A stretch of 64,000 nucleotides of DNA from Oscillospiraceae bacterium (GTDB taxonomy: Bacteria; Bacillota; Clostridia; Saccharofermentanales; Saccharofermentanaceae): assembly GCA_902782235.1 (NCBI GenBank), contig CACZML010000001.1:1-64000 (forward strand), read 5' to 3'. Positions 37,949 to 45,259 of the stretch are shown here, one piece after another. The notes beneath the pieces were generated by a model, which saw only the letters and a list, made by a program, of their open reading frames with translations, was not told where the DNA came from and made no database searches. Position 1 is the first letter of the stretch. Every line of letters starts with the position of its first letter. The translations under genes and the position numbers were made by a program.

Positions 37949-39157
37949 TTAGATAATCCACTGAGCCATTGTGAAGATAGGCATTGCGATACCGCCTACA
38001 ACTACACCGACGATGATAGCCATGATGATGATCATGATAGGCTCCAAAGCGGAAACCATCTTTGCTGTAGCTGCGTCTGCCTCGTCTTCAAAGTAGTCAG
38101 CAGCCTTCTGCAAAATCGTATCCAAAGTACCTGATTCCTCACCGATAGAAACCATTGCGTAGATCATCGGAGGGAACTCAGTGATATCTCTGATGGATCT
38201 TGAGAGGGATGTACCCTTTCTGATCTCGATACGAGCCTGAGCAAGCTTCTTCTGAAGTATAACGTTGTCGAGGGACTTCTCTGTGATCTCAACTGCCTGG
38301 AGTACTGAGATACCTGACTTAAGAAGCGTGGATACTGTTCTGGTAAATCTGGCTGAAGCATTCATTCTTGTTGCTTTACCGACTACAGGCATCTTGAGCA
38401 TGATCTTGGACCATGTCTCGGAACCCTTCTCAGAGTTCTTCCAGAGTGTGAAGCCGTAAATTGCAAGACCGACAACTGCTATATAAATGTACCAGAAATG
38501 CGTAAGTGAACTGGAAATGTTAAGCAAAGCCTTTGTCAGTTTCGGCAATTCACCGCCGAGGTCCTTGATCGTATCACCGATCTTAGGGACAAGGAATGTT
38601 AACAAACCGATTGATACTGCTGCAGTAAGACCAGCAAGGATCTTAGGATATACCATCGCAGAAGAGATCTTGTTCTTGAGCTTAGCTTCCTTAGCGAAGT
38701 GCTCAGCAAGTCTTTCCATAACCTCGTCGAGACGTCCGGATTCTTCTCCTGCTGCGATCATACTGATCATGATGTTCGGGATAACGCCCCTCTGTTCCTT
38801 GAAGGCTTCAGAAAGGGAACGACCGCTCTGAACTGATTCGTAGATCTCACCGACACACTTCTTAGCCTTCTTGGATTCAAGCTGCTGATAAAGCATATCG
38901 AGTGATCTTACTACGGTAATACCTGCAGACAAAAGTGAAGCAAGCTGTCTGGAGATGATAACAAGATCCTGGGTCTTAAGCTTAGGGCTTCCGACCTCCA
39001 TGTTCATAATGCCCTTACCCTTGTCTAAGGATAAGCTGGCAATATATTTGCCATCGGATTTAAGCTTTCTGGATGCTTCTCCAATAGAAGTAGCTTCGAC
39101 TATGCCTTCAGACATTTTACCGTTTGAATCGATAACTTGATATCTGAAATTAGCCAT
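37949..39157 (-). CDS. pilC: Type IV pilus inner-membrane platform protein PilC
   Basis: 402 residues with the duplicated T2SS-F domain layout: SRQLASLLSAGITVVRSLDML in the first copy and TRTVSTLLKSGISVLQAVEI in the second, each followed by GTSLSRS/GRSLSEA and the IGEESG-type motif (SMIAAGEESGRLDEV, MVSIGEESGTLDTI). Three membrane helices. An N-terminal domain (FRYQVIDSNGKMSEGIVEA) precedes the repeats. PilC anchors the motor ATPases PilB and PilT. Full length. Confidence 0.95.
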   Translation of the reverse strand: MANFRYQVIDSNGKMSEGIVEATSIGEASRKLKSDGKYIASLSLDKGKGIMNMEVGSPKLKTQDLVIISRQLASLLSAGITVVRSLDMLYQQLESKKAKKCVGEIYESVQSGRSLSEAFKEQRGVIPNIMISMIAAGEESGRLDEVMERLAEHFAKEAKLKNKISSAMVYPKILAGLTAAVSIGLLTFLVPKIGDTIKDLGGELPKLTKALLNISSSLTHFWYIYIAVVGLAIYGFTLWKNSEKGSETWSKIMLKMPVVGKATRMNASARFTRTVSTLLKSGISVLQAVEITEKSLDNVILQKKLAQARIEIRKGTSLSRSIRDITEFPPMIYAMVSIGEESGTLDTILQKAADYFEDEADAATAKMVSALEPIMIIIMAIIVGVVVGGIAMPIFTMAQWII

Positions 39158-39202
39158 CTAATATAACCCTCCTCTTATCAGAATTCTTTTTTAGCGCCTT
39201 TA

Positions 39203-40315
39203 TCAGGCAAACTCGAGATCACCGAACAACGGGCTGTTCGTCTGACCTGCGTTATTGATGAAACGCTTAAGATCTTCAGGGATTCTGCATCTCTGGAGAG
39301 CAGTATCTCTTGTGATCATATTACGCTTAACAAGCTCTGCAAGATAGAAATCGAGAGGGCACATACCCTGCTGAAGGCTCGTAGCGATCGTGGAGTCGAT
39401 CTGATATGTCTTACCTTCACGGATATTATTCTTAATAGCATCGTTGGAGATCATGATCTCGAAAGCAGCACATCTGCCTCCGCCGATTCTCTGTACGAGT
39501 GTCTGACAGATAACGGCAACAAGACATGTAGCGAGCTGAACTCTGATCTGATCCTGCTGATGCGGCGGGTAAACGTCGATGATACGGTTAACTGTATCAG
39601 CAGCTGAAGACGTATGGAGTGTTGAAAGAACGAGGTGTCCTGTCTCGGCTGCGGTAATAGCAGTGGAAATTGTATCGAGGTCACGCATTTCTCCTACGAG
39701 GATGATATCCGGATCCTCACGGAGAGCAGCTCTAAGAGCGTTAGCGAATGAAAGTGTATCCTCGTGAATTTCTCTCTGGTTGATCATAGCTTCTCCGTGC
39801 ATATGGAGATACTCGATAGGTTCCTCAAGAGTCAAGATGTGGCACTTCTTGCTCATGTTAACGTGACCGATCATTGCAGCCAGTGTTGTGGACTTACCGG
39901 AACCCGTAGGACCGGTAACGAGGATGAGTCCTCTAGGTCTCATAACCAATTCCTTGAAGATGTTAGGAAGACCCAACTGCTCACATGTAGGAATCTCATT
40001 TGTAATAGTTCTTGCAGCAAGAGCATATGTACCACGCTGCTTGAACACGTTACATCTGAAACGGCTGAAGTTCTCAACAATGTACGAGAAGTCGATCTCA
40101 CCTCTCTCGTTCAGATACTGCTGTCTTGATTTGTCGATCATTGACTTGCAAAGATACTCAGTATCTGCAGCTGTAAGCGGCTGATTACCTAACGGCATCA
40201 ACATACCGTCAACACGAATCATAGGCGGCAATCCTACCGTAATATGGGTATCGGATGCTCCCATCTTTACCGATTCAGCCAAAATCGATTCGATCGATAA
40301 ACTAAATCCTTCCAC
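39203..40315 (-). CDS. pilT: Type IV pilus retraction ATPase PilT
   Basis: 370-residue hexameric ATPase powering pilus disassembly and twitching. Walker A GPTGSGKST at residues 135-143, Walker B-region ILVGEMRDLDTISTAITAAE, and the His box HLVLSTLHTSSAADTVNRIIDVYP. It has the PilT-type start (an N2 domain beginning ILAESVKMGASDTHI) and lacks the tetracysteine motif of PilB. Its presence means the pilus is probably retractable. It is the second gene of the pilus operon. Confidence 0.95.
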   Translation of the reverse strand: MEGFSLSIESILAESVKMGASDTHITVGLPPMIRVDGMLMPLGNQPLTAADTEYLCKSMIDKSRQQYLNERGEIDFSYIVENFSRFRCNVFKQRGTYALAARTITNEIPTCEQLGLPNIFKELVMRPRGLILVTGPTGSGKSTTLAAMIGHVNMSKKCHILTLEEPIEYLHMHGEAMINQREIHEDTLSFANALRAALREDPDIILVGEMRDLDTISTAITAAETGHLVLSTLHTSSAADTVNRIIDVYPPHQQDQIRVQLATCLVAVICQTLVQRIGGGRCAAFEIMISNDAIKNNIREGKTYQIDSTIATSLQQGMCPLDFYLAELVKRNMITRDTALQRCRIPEDLKRFINNAGQTNSPLFGDLEFA

Positions 40316-40332
40316 GTTAAAAAACCTCCTTA

Positions 40333-41997
40333 TCAGTCAATCGTGTAAGCAACTCTGTTGAGCTCGCTGACCGTCGTAATACCTTCAAGTACGAGGTCTC
40401 TTGCGGAATCCTGAAGCATCTGTGTGCCTTCAGTGACAGCGAGTGCGCGCATCTCATCTTCGCTTGCTCTCTTCTCAAGCAAAGCCTTCATCTTCATTGT
40501 AATGATTACGATCTCATGGATAGCAATACGTCCCTTGTATCCCTTTTCATTACATTCTGTACAACCCTTACCACGATAGAGCTTCTGGCCCGGATCGAGT
40601 CTTAAGTACTCTCTGTCGTAAGCTTCAGGTTCATAAGATTCTCTGCAGTTAGTGCAGATACGGCGAACAAGACGCTGGGATACAACGCCAACCAGGGCTG
40701 AAGATACCATGTAAGGCTCCAGACCCATGTCGATAAGACGGTTGATGGAAGATACAGCATCGTTCGTGTGGATAGTACTGAATACAAGGTGTCCGGTGAT
40801 AGCAGCTCTCATAGCGATCTCAGCAGTCTCACCGTCACGGATCTCACCGACGAGGATGATATCAGGGTCCTGACGCAAGATGGATCTGAGGCCGCTCGCG
40901 AATGTCATTCCGGCCTTAGCGTTAACCTGGACCTGGTTCAATCCGGGGATCCTGATTTCTACAGGGTCCTCAACTGTGATGATATTAACTTCGTCTGTAT
41001 TCTTCTCTGAAAGGAGTGTGTAAAGGGTTGTTGTCTTACCTGAACCTGTAGGGCCTGAGATAAGGACGATACCCTGAGGGATCTTGATCATCTTGTCGAT
41101 CATCTCATTGTTACGATCGCTGATACCAAGATACTTTCTGTTCAAGTTAGCGTCATTCTTAGCAAGGATACGGATAACGGTCTTCTCACCGGTAACGCAG
41201 GGAAGAATGGATACACGCATGTCCACGTCCTCACCATTGATAACTGTCGTGATACGGCCGTCCTGAGGAATACGCTTCTCGGCGATGTTCATACCGCCAA
41301 GGATCTTGATTCTTGTTGTGATGGCGTCTTTTGCGGAAATAGGGTTGCTCATAACTTCCTGCATGACACCGTCGATTCTGATACGGACTCTTACTCGGTC
41401 TTCGAGAGGTTCGATATGAATATCGGATGAGCCTGAACGGATAGCATATTCGATCATTGAGTTAACGAGCTTAACAACCGGGGCGCTGTTAACTGCTTCT
41501 GAAAGTTCGTTGTCATCATCAAGGCTGTCATTTGCAAGGCTCGTACCGAGCTCTTCTGCAGCCTTGTTGGCGTTCTCTCTTCCGTAATGTACTTTAATAG
41601 CATCAATAATAGAAGTATGTGTTGCAAGCATCAGGGATATCTGGTATCCGGTCTGGAACTGCAACTCGTCTTCAATGGTAATGTTCATCGGGTCATCGAT
41701 AGCAACTACAAGGGTGTCACCATCGAAACCAATCGGGAAAACAACGTTCTCTTCACAGAATTTCTGTGTTAAAAGAGCTGTTGCCTTGGGGTCAACATCA
41801 ATACCTGACAGATCGATAATCGGATAATTATACTGGCTGGAAACCGCCCTCAAAATGTCGAATTCCGACATCAAACCGCTCTCAACGATAACTTCACCAA
41901 GACGTTTGCCGGTTTCCTTCTGAATACTAAGTACTTCTGCAAGTTCGGTAGCATTTAAGAATCCGCTCTCGACCAGAATATCACCTAATCTCTTCAT
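40333..41997 (-). CDS. pilB: Type IV pilus extension ATPase PilB
   Basis: 554-residue GspE/PilB ATPase powering pilus assembly. N-terminal MshEN-type domain (LGDILVESGFLNATELAEVL), Walker A ISGPTGSGKTTTLYTLL, ILVGEIRDGETAEIAMRAAITG, HLVFSTIHTNDAVSSINRL, and the zinc tetracysteine CTNCRESYEP...CTECNEKGYKGR. MshEN domains in some homologues bind cyclic di-GMP; whether this copy does is unknown. First gene of the operon with GGGAGGG upstream of the ATG. Confidence 0.95.
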   Translation of the reverse strand: MKRLGDILVESGFLNATELAEVLSIQKETGKRLGEVIVESGLMSEFDILRAVSSQYNYPIIDLSGIDVDPKATALLTQKFCEENVVFPIGFDGDTLVVAIDDPMNITIEDELQFQTGYQISLMLATHTSIIDAIKVHYGRENANKAAEELGTSLANDSLDDDNELSEAVNSAPVVKLVNSMIEYAIRSGSSDIHIEPLEDRVRVRIRIDGVMQEVMSNPISAKDAITTRIKILGGMNIAEKRIPQDGRITTVINGEDVDMRVSILPCVTGEKTVIRILAKNDANLNRKYLGISDRNNEMIDKMIKIPQGIVLISGPTGSGKTTTLYTLLSEKNTDEVNIITVEDPVEIRIPGLNQVQVNAKAGMTFASGLRSILRQDPDIILVGEIRDGETAEIAMRAAITGHLVFSTIHTNDAVSSINRLIDMGLEPYMVSSALVGVVSQRLVRRICTNCRESYEPEAYDREYLRLDPGQKLYRGKGCTECNEKGYKGRIAIHEIVIITMKMKALLEKRASEDEMRALAVTEGTQMLQDSARDLVLEGITTVSELNRVAYTID

Positions 41998-42226: not shown

Positions 42227-42266
42227 ATTTGATTATATTAATAAGATTACATTTGGAGGAATGTTA

Positions 42267-42992
42267 ATGTCAGGTCATTCTAAGTGGAGCAACATCAGAA
42301 GAAAAAAAGAGGCATCAGATGCAGCTAAGGGAGCTGTATTCACAAAGATTGCCAAAGAGATAGCTGTAGCAGTTAAGGCCGGAGGTCCTGACCCTGATGG
42401 CAATTCAAGACTTAAAGTAGTAGTGGCAAAAGCAAAGGCTGCCAATATGCCTAATGACAATATCAACCGCGCCATTAAGAAGGCTGCAGAAGCCGGTGAA
42501 GGTGACGATTATGAAGAGATCACATATGAAGGTTATGGTCCTGCAGGCGTTGCCATCATGGTCAAGACTCTGACCAACAACCGCAACCGTACGGCAGCAG
42601 ATCTCAGACACATCTTTGATAAGAACGGCGGCAACTTGGGTGTTGACGGTTCCGTTTCCTTCCTCTTCAACGAGAAGGGTACCATCCTTATTTCCAAGGA
42701 AGATTATGAAGATGAGGATCAGGTCATGGGCGATGCGTTGGACTGCGGCGCAGCTGATTTTGATTCAGATGACGAATACTATATCATCTCTACTTCCCCT
42801 TCTGATTATTATTCAGTCCGCGAGGCTCTCGAAGCTAAGAACTATGTGATCGCTGACTCAACTCTCGGCCCTGTTGCCATGACTACCGCTGAGGTTACAG
42901 ATCCCGATGCGATTGCCCAGCTCGAGAAGATGCTCGACATGATGGATGAGAACGAGGATATCCAGGAAGTCTTCCATAACTGGAACGGTTAA
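42267..42992 (+). CDS. yebC: YebC/PmpR/TACO1-family protein
   Basis: 241 residues beginning MSGHSKWSNIRRKKEASDAAKGAVFTK, the invariant family start. Of two in-frame ATGs (42261, 42267) the second is chosen, because it gives 6 bases from GGAGGA and the canonical N-terminus. YebC-family proteins are called transcription regulators, and more recent work ties them to translation of proline-rich stretches on the ribosome; both views come from other species. It heads an operon with three accessory genes. Confidence 0.93.
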   Translation: MSGHSKWSNIRRKKEASDAAKGAVFTKIAKEIAVAVKAGGPDPDGNSRLKVVVAKAKAANMPNDNINRAIKKAAEAGEGDDYEEITYEGYGPAGVAIMVKTLTNNRNRTAADLRHIFDKNGGNLGVDGSVSFLFNEKGTILISKEDYEDEDQVMGDALDCGAADFDSDDEYYIISTSPSDYYSVREALEAKNYVIADSTLGPVAMTTAEVTDPDAIAQLEKMLDMMDENEDIQEVFHNWNG

Positions 42993-43003
42993 GGACACTA
43001 GAA

Positions 43004-44080
43004 TTGGACAACCATGACGAATTAAAACAAGAGCAGATCCAGACACAGAGCGCTCCGGCAGCGCGAAAGACTTTGTTGTCTGAATTTCGTGGAACTCTTA
43101 AACGATTCGACAGGTCTAATCCGTCAAACCAGAATACCTATTCAGACCCTGCCCAAAGCTTCGAACGTAATGCGGAGCTTATACTTTCGAGCGAACAGTT
43201 GACCCGCGAAGTGTTATCAAACATCGCGGTCATTGCTTTCGTCGGTGCTTCAGGAACCGGTAAAAGTACCAGGGCTATCAAGGTAGCCAGAGATAATAAC
43301 ATCTATTACATAATTGACGACGGTCTTCTCATTAACGGAAGTCGTATCGTTGCCGGCACTTCTGCCAAGAAGGCTCCGACCAAGATGGAGTCCGTAAGGC
43401 AGGCGATCTTTGTCGATCCCACAAGATCCGCAATGATGCGCCGTGCATTGATCGAATCCATGCCCAGAGCTCTTATGATCCTGGGCACATCAGATTCCAT
43501 GCTCAGCAAGATCTGCGAAAACCTCTGGCTCAACCAGCCATCGATGCTCATCAGGATCGAAGACGTTTCCACCGAGGAAGAAAGACGTCTGGCACGTACA
43601 ACCAGAGTAACCGAAGGTATGCATACGATCCCTGTTCCGAGCATGGAGATCAAGCACGAGTTCTCCGGATATTTCTCGGATCCTTTCAGCAAACTGAGAC
43701 AGAGATTTGACCGTGAGCGTGGTGTTACTCCCCTGGCTCCTGATTCAGACAGGACCGTAGTAAGACCCACCTTCTCTTCACTGGGCTCTTATTCTATTTC
43801 GGATGAAGCTATCCTCGATCTGATAAAGATCGTTTTAAGAGACGTTCCCGGTTTTGCGGAAGTTACTTCATTTAAAACTGAGAAACAGACTTTCGGCGTT
43901 ATGATCAGCCTTGATCTGGCGCTTTACTACGGCTACGATGCCCAAAAAGTTCTGGAGACAGCACAGCAGAAGGTTGGAAACGCTGTCGAGGAATTCACTT
44001 CTATAACTATGAATGGTGTAAATGTCAGGGCGAACCGTCTCATGCATTTACCTAAACCATTAACACCGGAGGATAATTAA
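43004..44080 (+). CDS. P-loop NTPase fused to an Asp23/Gls24-like domain
   Basis: 358 residues. After about 65 residues of charged N-terminus comes a Walker A motif in IAFVGASGTGKSTRAIKVAR (81-89); the region to about 250 looks like a small P-loop NTPase with a DVSTEEERRLARTTRVTEG stretch. Residues about 264-345 (SISDEAILDLIKIVLRDVPG ... GVNVRANRL) resemble the Asp23/Gls24 alkaline-shock domain. The start is TTG at 43004 with AAGGA 8 bases upstream; no other start gives the N-terminus. It lies 11 bases after yebC and its stop overlaps the next ATG by one base. Function unknown; domain calls are by pattern. Confidence 0.78.
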   Translation: MDNHDELKQEQIQTQSAPAARKTLLSEFRGTLKRFDRSNPSNQNTYSDPAQSFERNAELILSSEQLTREVLSNIAVIAFVGASGTGKSTRAIKVARDNNIYYIIDDGLLINGSRIVAGTSAKKAPTKMESVRQAIFVDPTRSAMMRRALIESMPRALMILGTSDSMLSKICENLWLNQPSMLIRIEDVSTEEERRLARTTRVTEGMHTIPVPSMEIKHEFSGYFSDPFSKLRQRFDRERGVTPLAPDSDRTVVRPTFSSLGSYSISDEAILDLIKIVLRDVPGFAEVTSFKTEKQTFGVMISLDLALYYGYDAQKVLETAQQKVGNAVEEFTSITMNGVNVRANRLMHLPKPLTPEDN

Positions 44081-44841
44081 TGGAAAAGATCTACATGATC
44101 CCCGTCAACGATGCTTATAACGAGCATGGCGGTTGCCCAATCTGCAGACTTCGTGATAAAGCTGAGAACAATTATCTCGAATATTATCTCGGACCTTCGC
44201 TGATGGAACCTGATACCCGTAAGATCACCAACAAGACAGGTTTTTGCCCTGTTCACATGGGCAAGCTCAATAAAGCAGTCACCAACAGGCTGGGCTTGGG
44301 CCTTGTTATGCATACGCATCTTAAGGATTTCAATGAGGAATTGAATCCAAAGCTTCAGTCTGCTATTCCGGCGAAGGCCGGTCTGTTAAAGGGCAGAAAT
44401 TCCGAATACAAGCAGAAGCTTAACAATGTAGCTGACCTCCTCGAAAAAAGGATCAGCCTCTGCCCTATCTGCGATAATCTCAACGATGCAATGGGACATT
44501 ATGTTGAAGTCATTTGCTGGATGTTCTCACATGATAAGGACTTCAAGGATAAGTTCATAAATGCTGAGTTCCATTGTCTGCCTCATACTGCTTTACTGTT
44601 AAGGCAGGCAGCAAAGCTCTCACAGAACGAGGCATCTGATTTTGTTGAGGCGCTTTATACCAACAACACTGCAACATTTGATGCCCTGATCTCTGATGTC
44701 GAATATTTCACGCTTAAATTCGACTACAGAAATACTGACAAGCCTTGGGGAACCAGCAAGAATTCCATCCAGCGCTCTATGCGTTTCTTATCTTCCGACG
44801 GGAGGGATTTTGATGAACAGCAATCCAAGAAACAGTCTTGA
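44080..44841 (+). CDS. DUF6062-like protein with two zinc-site modules
   Basis: 253-residue cytoplasmic protein. Two similar modules each pair a CPIC knuckle with a CxxH: GGCPICRLRD (Cys19/Cys22) with FCPVHMGKL (Cys56/His59), and later LCPICDNLND with FHCLPHTALL. The pattern suggests two CCCH zinc sites from an internal duplication. This corresponds to DUF6062, common in Clostridia, with no known reaction. It is translationally joined to the P-loop/Asp23 gene (one-base overlap) and overlaps the following gene by 29 bases. Confidence 0.82.
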   Translation: MEKIYMIPVNDAYNEHGGCPICRLRDKAENNYLEYYLGPSLMEPDTRKITNKTGFCPVHMGKLNKAVTNRLGLGLVMHTHLKDFNEELNPKLQSAIPAKAGLLKGRNSEYKQKLNNVADLLEKRISLCPICDNLNDAMGHYVEVICWMFSHDKDFKDKFINAEFHCLPHTALLLRQAAKLSQNEASDFVEALYTNNTATFDALISDVEYFTLKFDYRNTDKPWGTSKNSIQRSMRFLSSDGRDFDEQQSKKQS

Positions 44842-45259
44842 TTATCAGGGAGCTCAGCTGGAACAGCTGTCTGATGTGTCTTTGCTTGAAGTAATGCAGG
44901 AAAAGACTGATGAGGAGACTTCTACAAAGTATGTGCTCATCAAGCACGATTTCTATTCATCTGATTCAGATCACGGACGCGAACTGCTCTCCGGTTTTCT
45001 TGACGGTCTGAGCGAATCATCATTTAGTTCAGTGGTCGTATATCTTATAGATAAAGGAACAAAGCTTCTTGATGAGACAAATCCTCTTCATGACAGCATG
45101 CTCCGTCTGATTGAGAAATCCGAGATGGTTATTGCTGCAGCTGATAGCATCTCTTTTTATGAGGTGACATATGACAGCAATTCCAAAATAGTTGAACAGT
45201 CTTCACGTTCTATTGCTGAAGACATTATTTATTTGCCCGGTCTTTTTGTTCTGGAATAA
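44813..45259 (+). CDS. YedF/DsrE-like protein without the cysteine motif
   Basis: 148 residues from the ATG at 44813 (GGGAGGG 6 bases upstream; the longer open frame back to 44696 overlaps the previous gene and is rejected). The body has the fold pattern of the C-terminal domain of YedF-type proteins: YVLIKHDFYSSDSDHGRELL, FLDGLSESSFSSVVVYLIDKGTKLL, LIEKSEMVIAAADSISFYEV. In YedF this last stretch normally carries a CGTC pair; here it reads AAADS. So the protein is not expected to relay sulfur or selenium by that site. Last gene of the yebC operon, followed by a terminator. Confidence 0.7.
   Translation: MNSNPRNSLDYQGAQLEQLSDVSLLEVMQEKTDEETSTKYVLIKHDFYSSDSDHGRELLSGFLDGLSESSFSSVVVYLIDKGTKLLDETNPLHDSMLRLIEKSEMVIAAADSISFYEVTYDSNSKIVEQSSRSIAEDIIYLPGLFVLE

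Follow-up and report, generated by a model that had tools for sequence, protein, structure and literature searches.

Asp23 proteins are abundant and widespread, and the accessible parts of two papers that treat them state that their molecular job is unclear (PMC5437119; PMC6954212). In Staphylococcus aureus, Asp23 assembles into filaments and is held at the membrane by AmaP, the alkaline shock response membrane anchor (PMC6954212). In Bacillus subtilis, the family member YqhY has been proposed to restrain acetyl-CoA carboxylase, and a yloU-yloV operon has been described (PMC5437119, in the part available). These sources already describe the family, the anchor at the membrane and the connection with lipids (PMC5437119; PMC6954212). 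Described here is a branch of the family in which the Asp23 domain is fused to a nucleoside triphosphatase (NTPase), members of which databases already list under the Asp23 name, a naming that hides the NTPase half. No paper on the P-loop/Asp23 protein or on its NTPase half was found in the open-licence PMC literature, which is weak evidence of absence, and the protein was not found in the accessible parts of PMC12548448, PMC5437119, PMC11244957, PMC11728337, PMC6954212, PMC6459899 and PMC11350273.

The gene, from a gut clostridium, lies at 43004..44080 on the plus strand of the window (the whole 64,000-nucleotide stretch of DNA that was analysed), coordinates that include the stop codon. Its open reading frame encodes 358 amino acids from a TTG start, which is preceded by a ribosome-binding-site-like AAGGA. 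The original prediction had joined an NTPase, with a Walker A motif at residues 81-89, to an Asp23-like domain at about 264-345 in one polypeptide, and both halves are confirmed; the fusion proves to be the regular build of a large family of this phylum. The motif found is G81-x-x-G84-x-G86-K87-S88 (GASGTGKS, 81-88), and the Asp23 domain extends over about residues 261-347. In a full-length structure model with 42 sequences (mean pLDDT 67.2), an alpha/beta NTPase takes up about residues 75-212, and a domain of alpha-beta-beta-alpha-beta order follows at about 267-347. Structure models and invariant residues delimit the NTPase domain at residues 75-212 (43226..43639, plus strand), and Pfam, hhalign and loop spacing delimit the short-loop, AmaP-like Asp23 domain at residues 261-347 (43784..44044, plus strand). 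The N-terminal extension, residues 1-70 (43004..43213, plus strand), is weakly conserved, as indicated by the model and by the starts of divergent reading frames: pLDDT is low in much of residues 1-52, and many divergent members begin directly with the first NTPase strand, with GKS about 12 residues past the start. A fusion member from the same order (L150, 7529-9022, minus strand) is a 498-residue reading frame with GKS at about 205, and this much longer extension indicates that the part before the NTPase differs strongly among members. No NCBIfam model passes its cut-off on the window protein.

The fusion is widely distributed. A scan of contigs found 150 relatives, of which 80 were kept at 62-98% identity, mostly from rumen or gut Saccharofermentans-like genomes, and the gene was present in 56 of the 59 relatives searched. 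Across the phylum, a full-length profile built from 25 sequences matched 176 of 398 genomes at E<=0.001, and 167 remained as strong matches (E<1e-30) once nine weak ones (E>1e-10) were dropped. Every match among those listed, which do not include the weakest, extends to at least position 320 of 334. With a profile restricted to the NTPase, 176 of the 398 genomes were again matched and, after nine weak matches had likewise been dropped, the same 167 strong genomes were recovered, as judged by reading the two listings, which indicates that the two parts are kept together; with this profile no stand-alone NTPase lacking the Asp23 domain was seen among the 398 genomes. Most of the 167 genomes carry a single copy. 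The alignment of divergent members comprises 36 of the 45 targets found, eight near relatives and L150 having been left out, and 35 of the 36 are 29-66% identical to the window protein. Since 167 of 398 phylum genomes carry the fusion, chance or a local artefact is rejected. Within the same class the distribution is patchy, with strong matches in 2 of 15 genomes (its own and G352) versus 165 among the phylum's other 383 genomes. A sporulation protein is not favoured: Spo0A is present in 345 of the 398 genomes without following the fusion, and at least five genomes that carry the fusion (G087, G104, G129, G150 and G167) have no Spo0A match. One scan of viral contigs yielded no relative that would suggest phage cargo, and a plasmid search matched a single record, a 286-kb Monoglobus replicon. 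A further member, WP_158648977.1 from Monoglobus pectinilyticus (Clostridia), is 44% identical to one divergent member (L136) over 94% of the query and carries the automatic NCBI name 'Asp23/Gls24 family envelope stress response protein'. The family is widespread, single-copy and clostridial, apparently unstudied, and no oddity of a single genome.

Sensitive profiles, whose failure to detect Asp23 at 264-345 the original prediction had named as the outcome that would count against it, gave the opposite result. Pfam Asp23 (PF03780) matched residues 296-343 of the window protein (E=1.7e-7; 32 bits, above the cut-off of 28), and hhalign yielded a 93-column alignment with stand-alone Asp23 proteins (probability 98.9%, E=2e-17), giving a complete domain that runs from the G-x-I-x-I start at G261 through the last strand; the NTPase half, aligned with the same proteins as a control, reached a probability of 0.3%. 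The Pfam model was matched by 36/36 divergent members at E<=1. In a structure comparison of residues 264-348, the top matches were the C-terminal cytosolic domains of cation-diffusion transporters (VIA Z 11.5, rmsd 2.0 A, 79 residues aligned). Since both Pfam and hhalign assign the domain to Asp23, we reject this other fold and read the likeness as a shared alpha-beta-beta-alpha-beta arrangement. An Asp23-family entry was not seen among the structure matches listed, which excludes nothing. In the spacing of its conserved positions the domain resembles that of AmaP. From the first glycine to the Y of the YG motif there are 66 residues in all 30 stand-alone Asp23 proteins compared (the 30 best-scoring Asp23 loci, not a random draw), 46-53 in 36/36 fusions, and 49 in the genome's own AmaP; the 18-residue loop between the first helix and the following strand, typical of the stand-alone Asp23/YqhY type, is absent from the fusions.

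The same genome possesses a normal Asp23-AmaP pair. On contig 41 a gene for an Asp23 protein of 122 residues is followed by amaP and then by a gene that we take to be nusB-like, so that the fusion constitutes a third Asp23 module in the genome. This AmaP scores 74.6 bits against the NCBIfam model anchor_AmaP (NF033218; cut-off 55), whereas the window protein gave no match to that model up to E=10, and two divergent fusion members reached 19.6 and 29.2 bits (the latter E=6.8e-7), both under the cut-off. The peak 19-residue hydropathy of the window protein is 1.21 versus 2.59 for the genome's AmaP, and values of at least 1.6 occur in 3 of the 36 fusion members, never N-terminal of the P-loop. 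The fusion protein shows no obvious transmembrane segment and would be soluble. It resembles an AmaP in which the NTPase has replaced the membrane helices, and the docking model set out below rests on this resemblance. Asp23 domains were found in 390 of the 398 phylum genomes. Four fusion-bearing genomes have a single Asp23 match (G077, G167, G203 and G343), the first three of them being about 80% complete.

The NTPase half is the better conserved of the two, with a mean majority fraction of 0.61 versus 0.41 for the Asp23 half. In the full-length model, the Walker A sequence GxxxxGK[ST] sits on a strand (75-80), loop and helix (87-97). G81, G84, G86, K87, S88, D105, D106, G107, G118, K122, T162, S163, R201, H207 and P210 are invariant in all 36 divergent and all 81 order-level sequences, a set that includes Walker A (81-88), a DDG motif (105-107), K122, a TS pair (162-163), R201 and H207. 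Invariance of the P-loop, DDG, K, TS, R and H argues for a live active site. Affinities of the fold are less sharply defined. Modelled alone, the NTPase has a mean pLDDT of 72.7 and a pTM of 0.66; Foldseek ranks adenylate kinases first, with E about 1e-3 (one at E=9.5e-4), and VIA Z scores of at most 7.1, a level that the tool calls common, were obtained with GPN-loop GTPases, Clp1 and adenylate kinases (Z 6.5 for an adenylate kinase, at 4.0 A over 118 residues). P-loop Pfam models all fall below their cut-offs, AAA_33 (PF13671) at 15.8 bits against 27, and in the Pfam and NCBIfam scans the NTPase fits no curated family. Alignment with profiles built from relatives' proteins was weak for adenylate kinase (PF00406; 21% probability) and short for HPr kinase (PF07475; 16%), where 32 columns cover the P-loop and DD motif only. 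The models thus support a P-loop, kinase-like class and, the structural matches being weak, no subfamily; from the P-loop class we infer that the fusion binds ATP or GTP.

Directly upstream of the fusion, across an 11-base gap, lies yebC (TACO1/YebC family; 42261..42992, plus strand; Pfam Transcrip_reg 6.9e-55, TACO1_YebC_N 8.1e-31). Downstream, a gene for a DUF6062 protein (44080..44841, plus strand; Pfam DUF6062 9.8e-79) begins within the fusion's stop codon, the stop and the next ATG overlapping as TAATG. Among 80 order-level loci, one of which was short of flank on each count, yebC is directly upstream in 79/79 and the DUF6062 gene directly downstream in 79/79. In a separate neighbourhood set (45 of 50 loci; L128, L133, L138, L146 and L155, in which the target was uncalled, were omitted), yebC adjoins the fusion in 16/16 order-level loci and occurs within seven genes in 0/29 loci outside the order. 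The link to yebC that had been suggested is therefore strict within the order and does not extend beyond it, which points to a local operon and neither to a constant partner nor to a general functional clue. Conservation of the DUF6062 gene as a neighbour is likewise confined to the order. In the loci examined, the genes adjoining the fusion include no obvious lipid gene. Neighbours vary outside the order, none of them forming an obvious envelope or lipid gene cluster; the Monoglobus locus, for example, has Rex upstream and a DNA glycosylase and an aldolase downstream.

Several other features of the surroundings may be recorded here. The DUF6062 protein carries CxxC/CxxH-like motifs (CPIC, CPVH, CPIC, CLPH) suggesting metal binding. 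A reading frame at 44696-45259 (plus strand) overlaps the DUF6062 gene, its true start probably lying inside the listed frame; Pfam gave it no match, and its resemblance to YedF of selenium metabolism is weak (residues 67-158; 25.5 bits against a cut-off of 110). On the minus strand at 37949-41997 are three reading frames reminiscent of genes for type IV pili or secretion (an inner-membrane protein and two ATPases), and relatives of the 554-residue ATPase-like frame among them lie near yebC in several order-level loci (cluster C3). Elsewhere in the genome (contig 99, L199; 5508-9818, minus strand) are a gene for a Dak2 protein of 268 residues and then a 251-residue frame that may be a separate gene for the Dak2 C-terminal half. 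Nearby frames are presumably DegV-like and acyltransferase-like, and no Asp23 (yloU) gene was found beside this Dak2 gene.

It is tempting to speculate that the fusion is a soluble regulator of the kinase type, dependent on ATP, which docks on the cell's Asp23/AmaP assembly, a reading that we prefer tentatively and regard as possible rather than probable. The protein would be a P-loop kinase-type enzyme or switch permanently joined to a short-loop Asp23 domain, and the invariant residues together with the kinase-like fold predict that ATP is used for phosphoryl transfer or for a nucleotide-driven switch. The Asp23 domain may then dock on the assembly that the cell's separate Asp23 and AmaP form, a role that the similarly shaped domain of AmaP may also have; this is the weaker step of the argument. 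With the NTPase in the position of AmaP's membrane anchor, the fusion would supply the Asp23 layer beneath the membrane with an ATP-dependent activity, or perhaps control Asp23 assembly. Several observations count against this reading: the NTPase belongs to no curated family and has only weak fold matches, the window protein gives no hit to the AmaP model, the varied neighbours outside the order include no obvious envelope or lipid cluster, and four genomes with the fusion show a single Asp23 match, although three of these are about 80% complete. Or, more specifically, a kinase-type controller might sit on Asp23 filaments by its AmaP-like domain and phosphorylate, remodel or disassemble them, although we consider this version unlikely. 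If such a role is true, nucleotides would control what Asp23 does in a large share of the phylum.

A different reading, which we hold to be doubtful, is that the fusion is a kinase of central metabolism, acting on small molecules or proteins, with no envelope link; its Asp23 fold would be a generic module that serves only for dimerisation or oligomerisation, or for sensing a ligand. In small-molecule kinases an acidic motif follows strand 2, and the DDG of the fusion sits at that position; P-loop kinase-like folds also head the Foldseek list, metabolic genes are among the neighbours outside the order, as in Monoglobus, and in the structure comparison the C-terminal domain is similar to the cytosolic part of cation-diffusion transporters. 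The fact that 36/36 members still match the Asp23 family speaks against an incidental domain, and the studied proteins of this family, in the accessible parts of the papers, act at the membrane or on lipid synthesis (PMC5437119; PMC6954212), which likewise counts against a purely metabolic kinase. Lipid synthesis itself could be the target, the fusion regulating fatty-acid synthesis in the manner of B. subtilis YqhY or YloU-YloV, with the NTPase half providing ATP dependence. The YqhY link to acetyl-CoA carboxylase and the yloU-yloV operon lend this some plausibility (PMC5437119, in the part available), and the genome's own Dak2 gene has no adjoining Asp23 gene, so that the fusion could fill the YloU role. 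We nevertheless judge such a regulator quite unlikely, given that no obvious lipid gene adjoins the fusion in the loci examined and that a separate yqhY-like Asp23 gene exists near what we take to be nusB.

The strand 3 sequence (LMILGTS) has no obvious canonical Walker B aspartate and no curated enzyme model matches the family, as would suit a nucleotide-binding relic or sensor without catalysis. A relic would not be expected to keep DDG, K122, TS, R201 and H207 unchanged in 36/36 and 81/81 sequences, as a working site would, or to be more conserved than the Asp23 half to which it is joined, and we consider this improbable. A translation-linked factor acting with YebC from the same operon is very improbable: the constant upstream position of yebC and the short gaps within the order suggest it, yet the fusion protein is conserved in the 29 loci outside the order, where yebC is never within seven genes.

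An Asp23 domain is here permanently tied to a catalytic-looking module, so that the substrate of the NTPase would reveal the purpose of at least one Asp23 domain. The family, with a candidate active site that is fully invariant and generally a single copy in each genome, offers an assay for Asp23 function. The named member WP_158648977.1 is shorter than the window protein (coding sequence of 870 bases versus 1077); it belongs to the fusion family although its annotation covers the Asp23 half only. Compared with P-loop kinases and NTPases such as adenylate kinase, gluconate kinase, GPN-loop GTPases and Clp1, the fusion has the P-loop fold in common, but structural and profile likeness is weak throughout. 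Its C-terminal domain, on the other hand, belongs to the Asp23/Gls24 family (Asp23, YqhY, YloU) and aligns over its full length, the fusion differing from the 30 stand-alone Asp23 proteins in the missing 18-residue loop and in the added N-terminal P-loop NTPase. With AmaP it shares the short-loop, C-terminal Asp23 domain; where AmaP has N-terminal membrane helices, the fusion has none, and an NTPase stands in their place.
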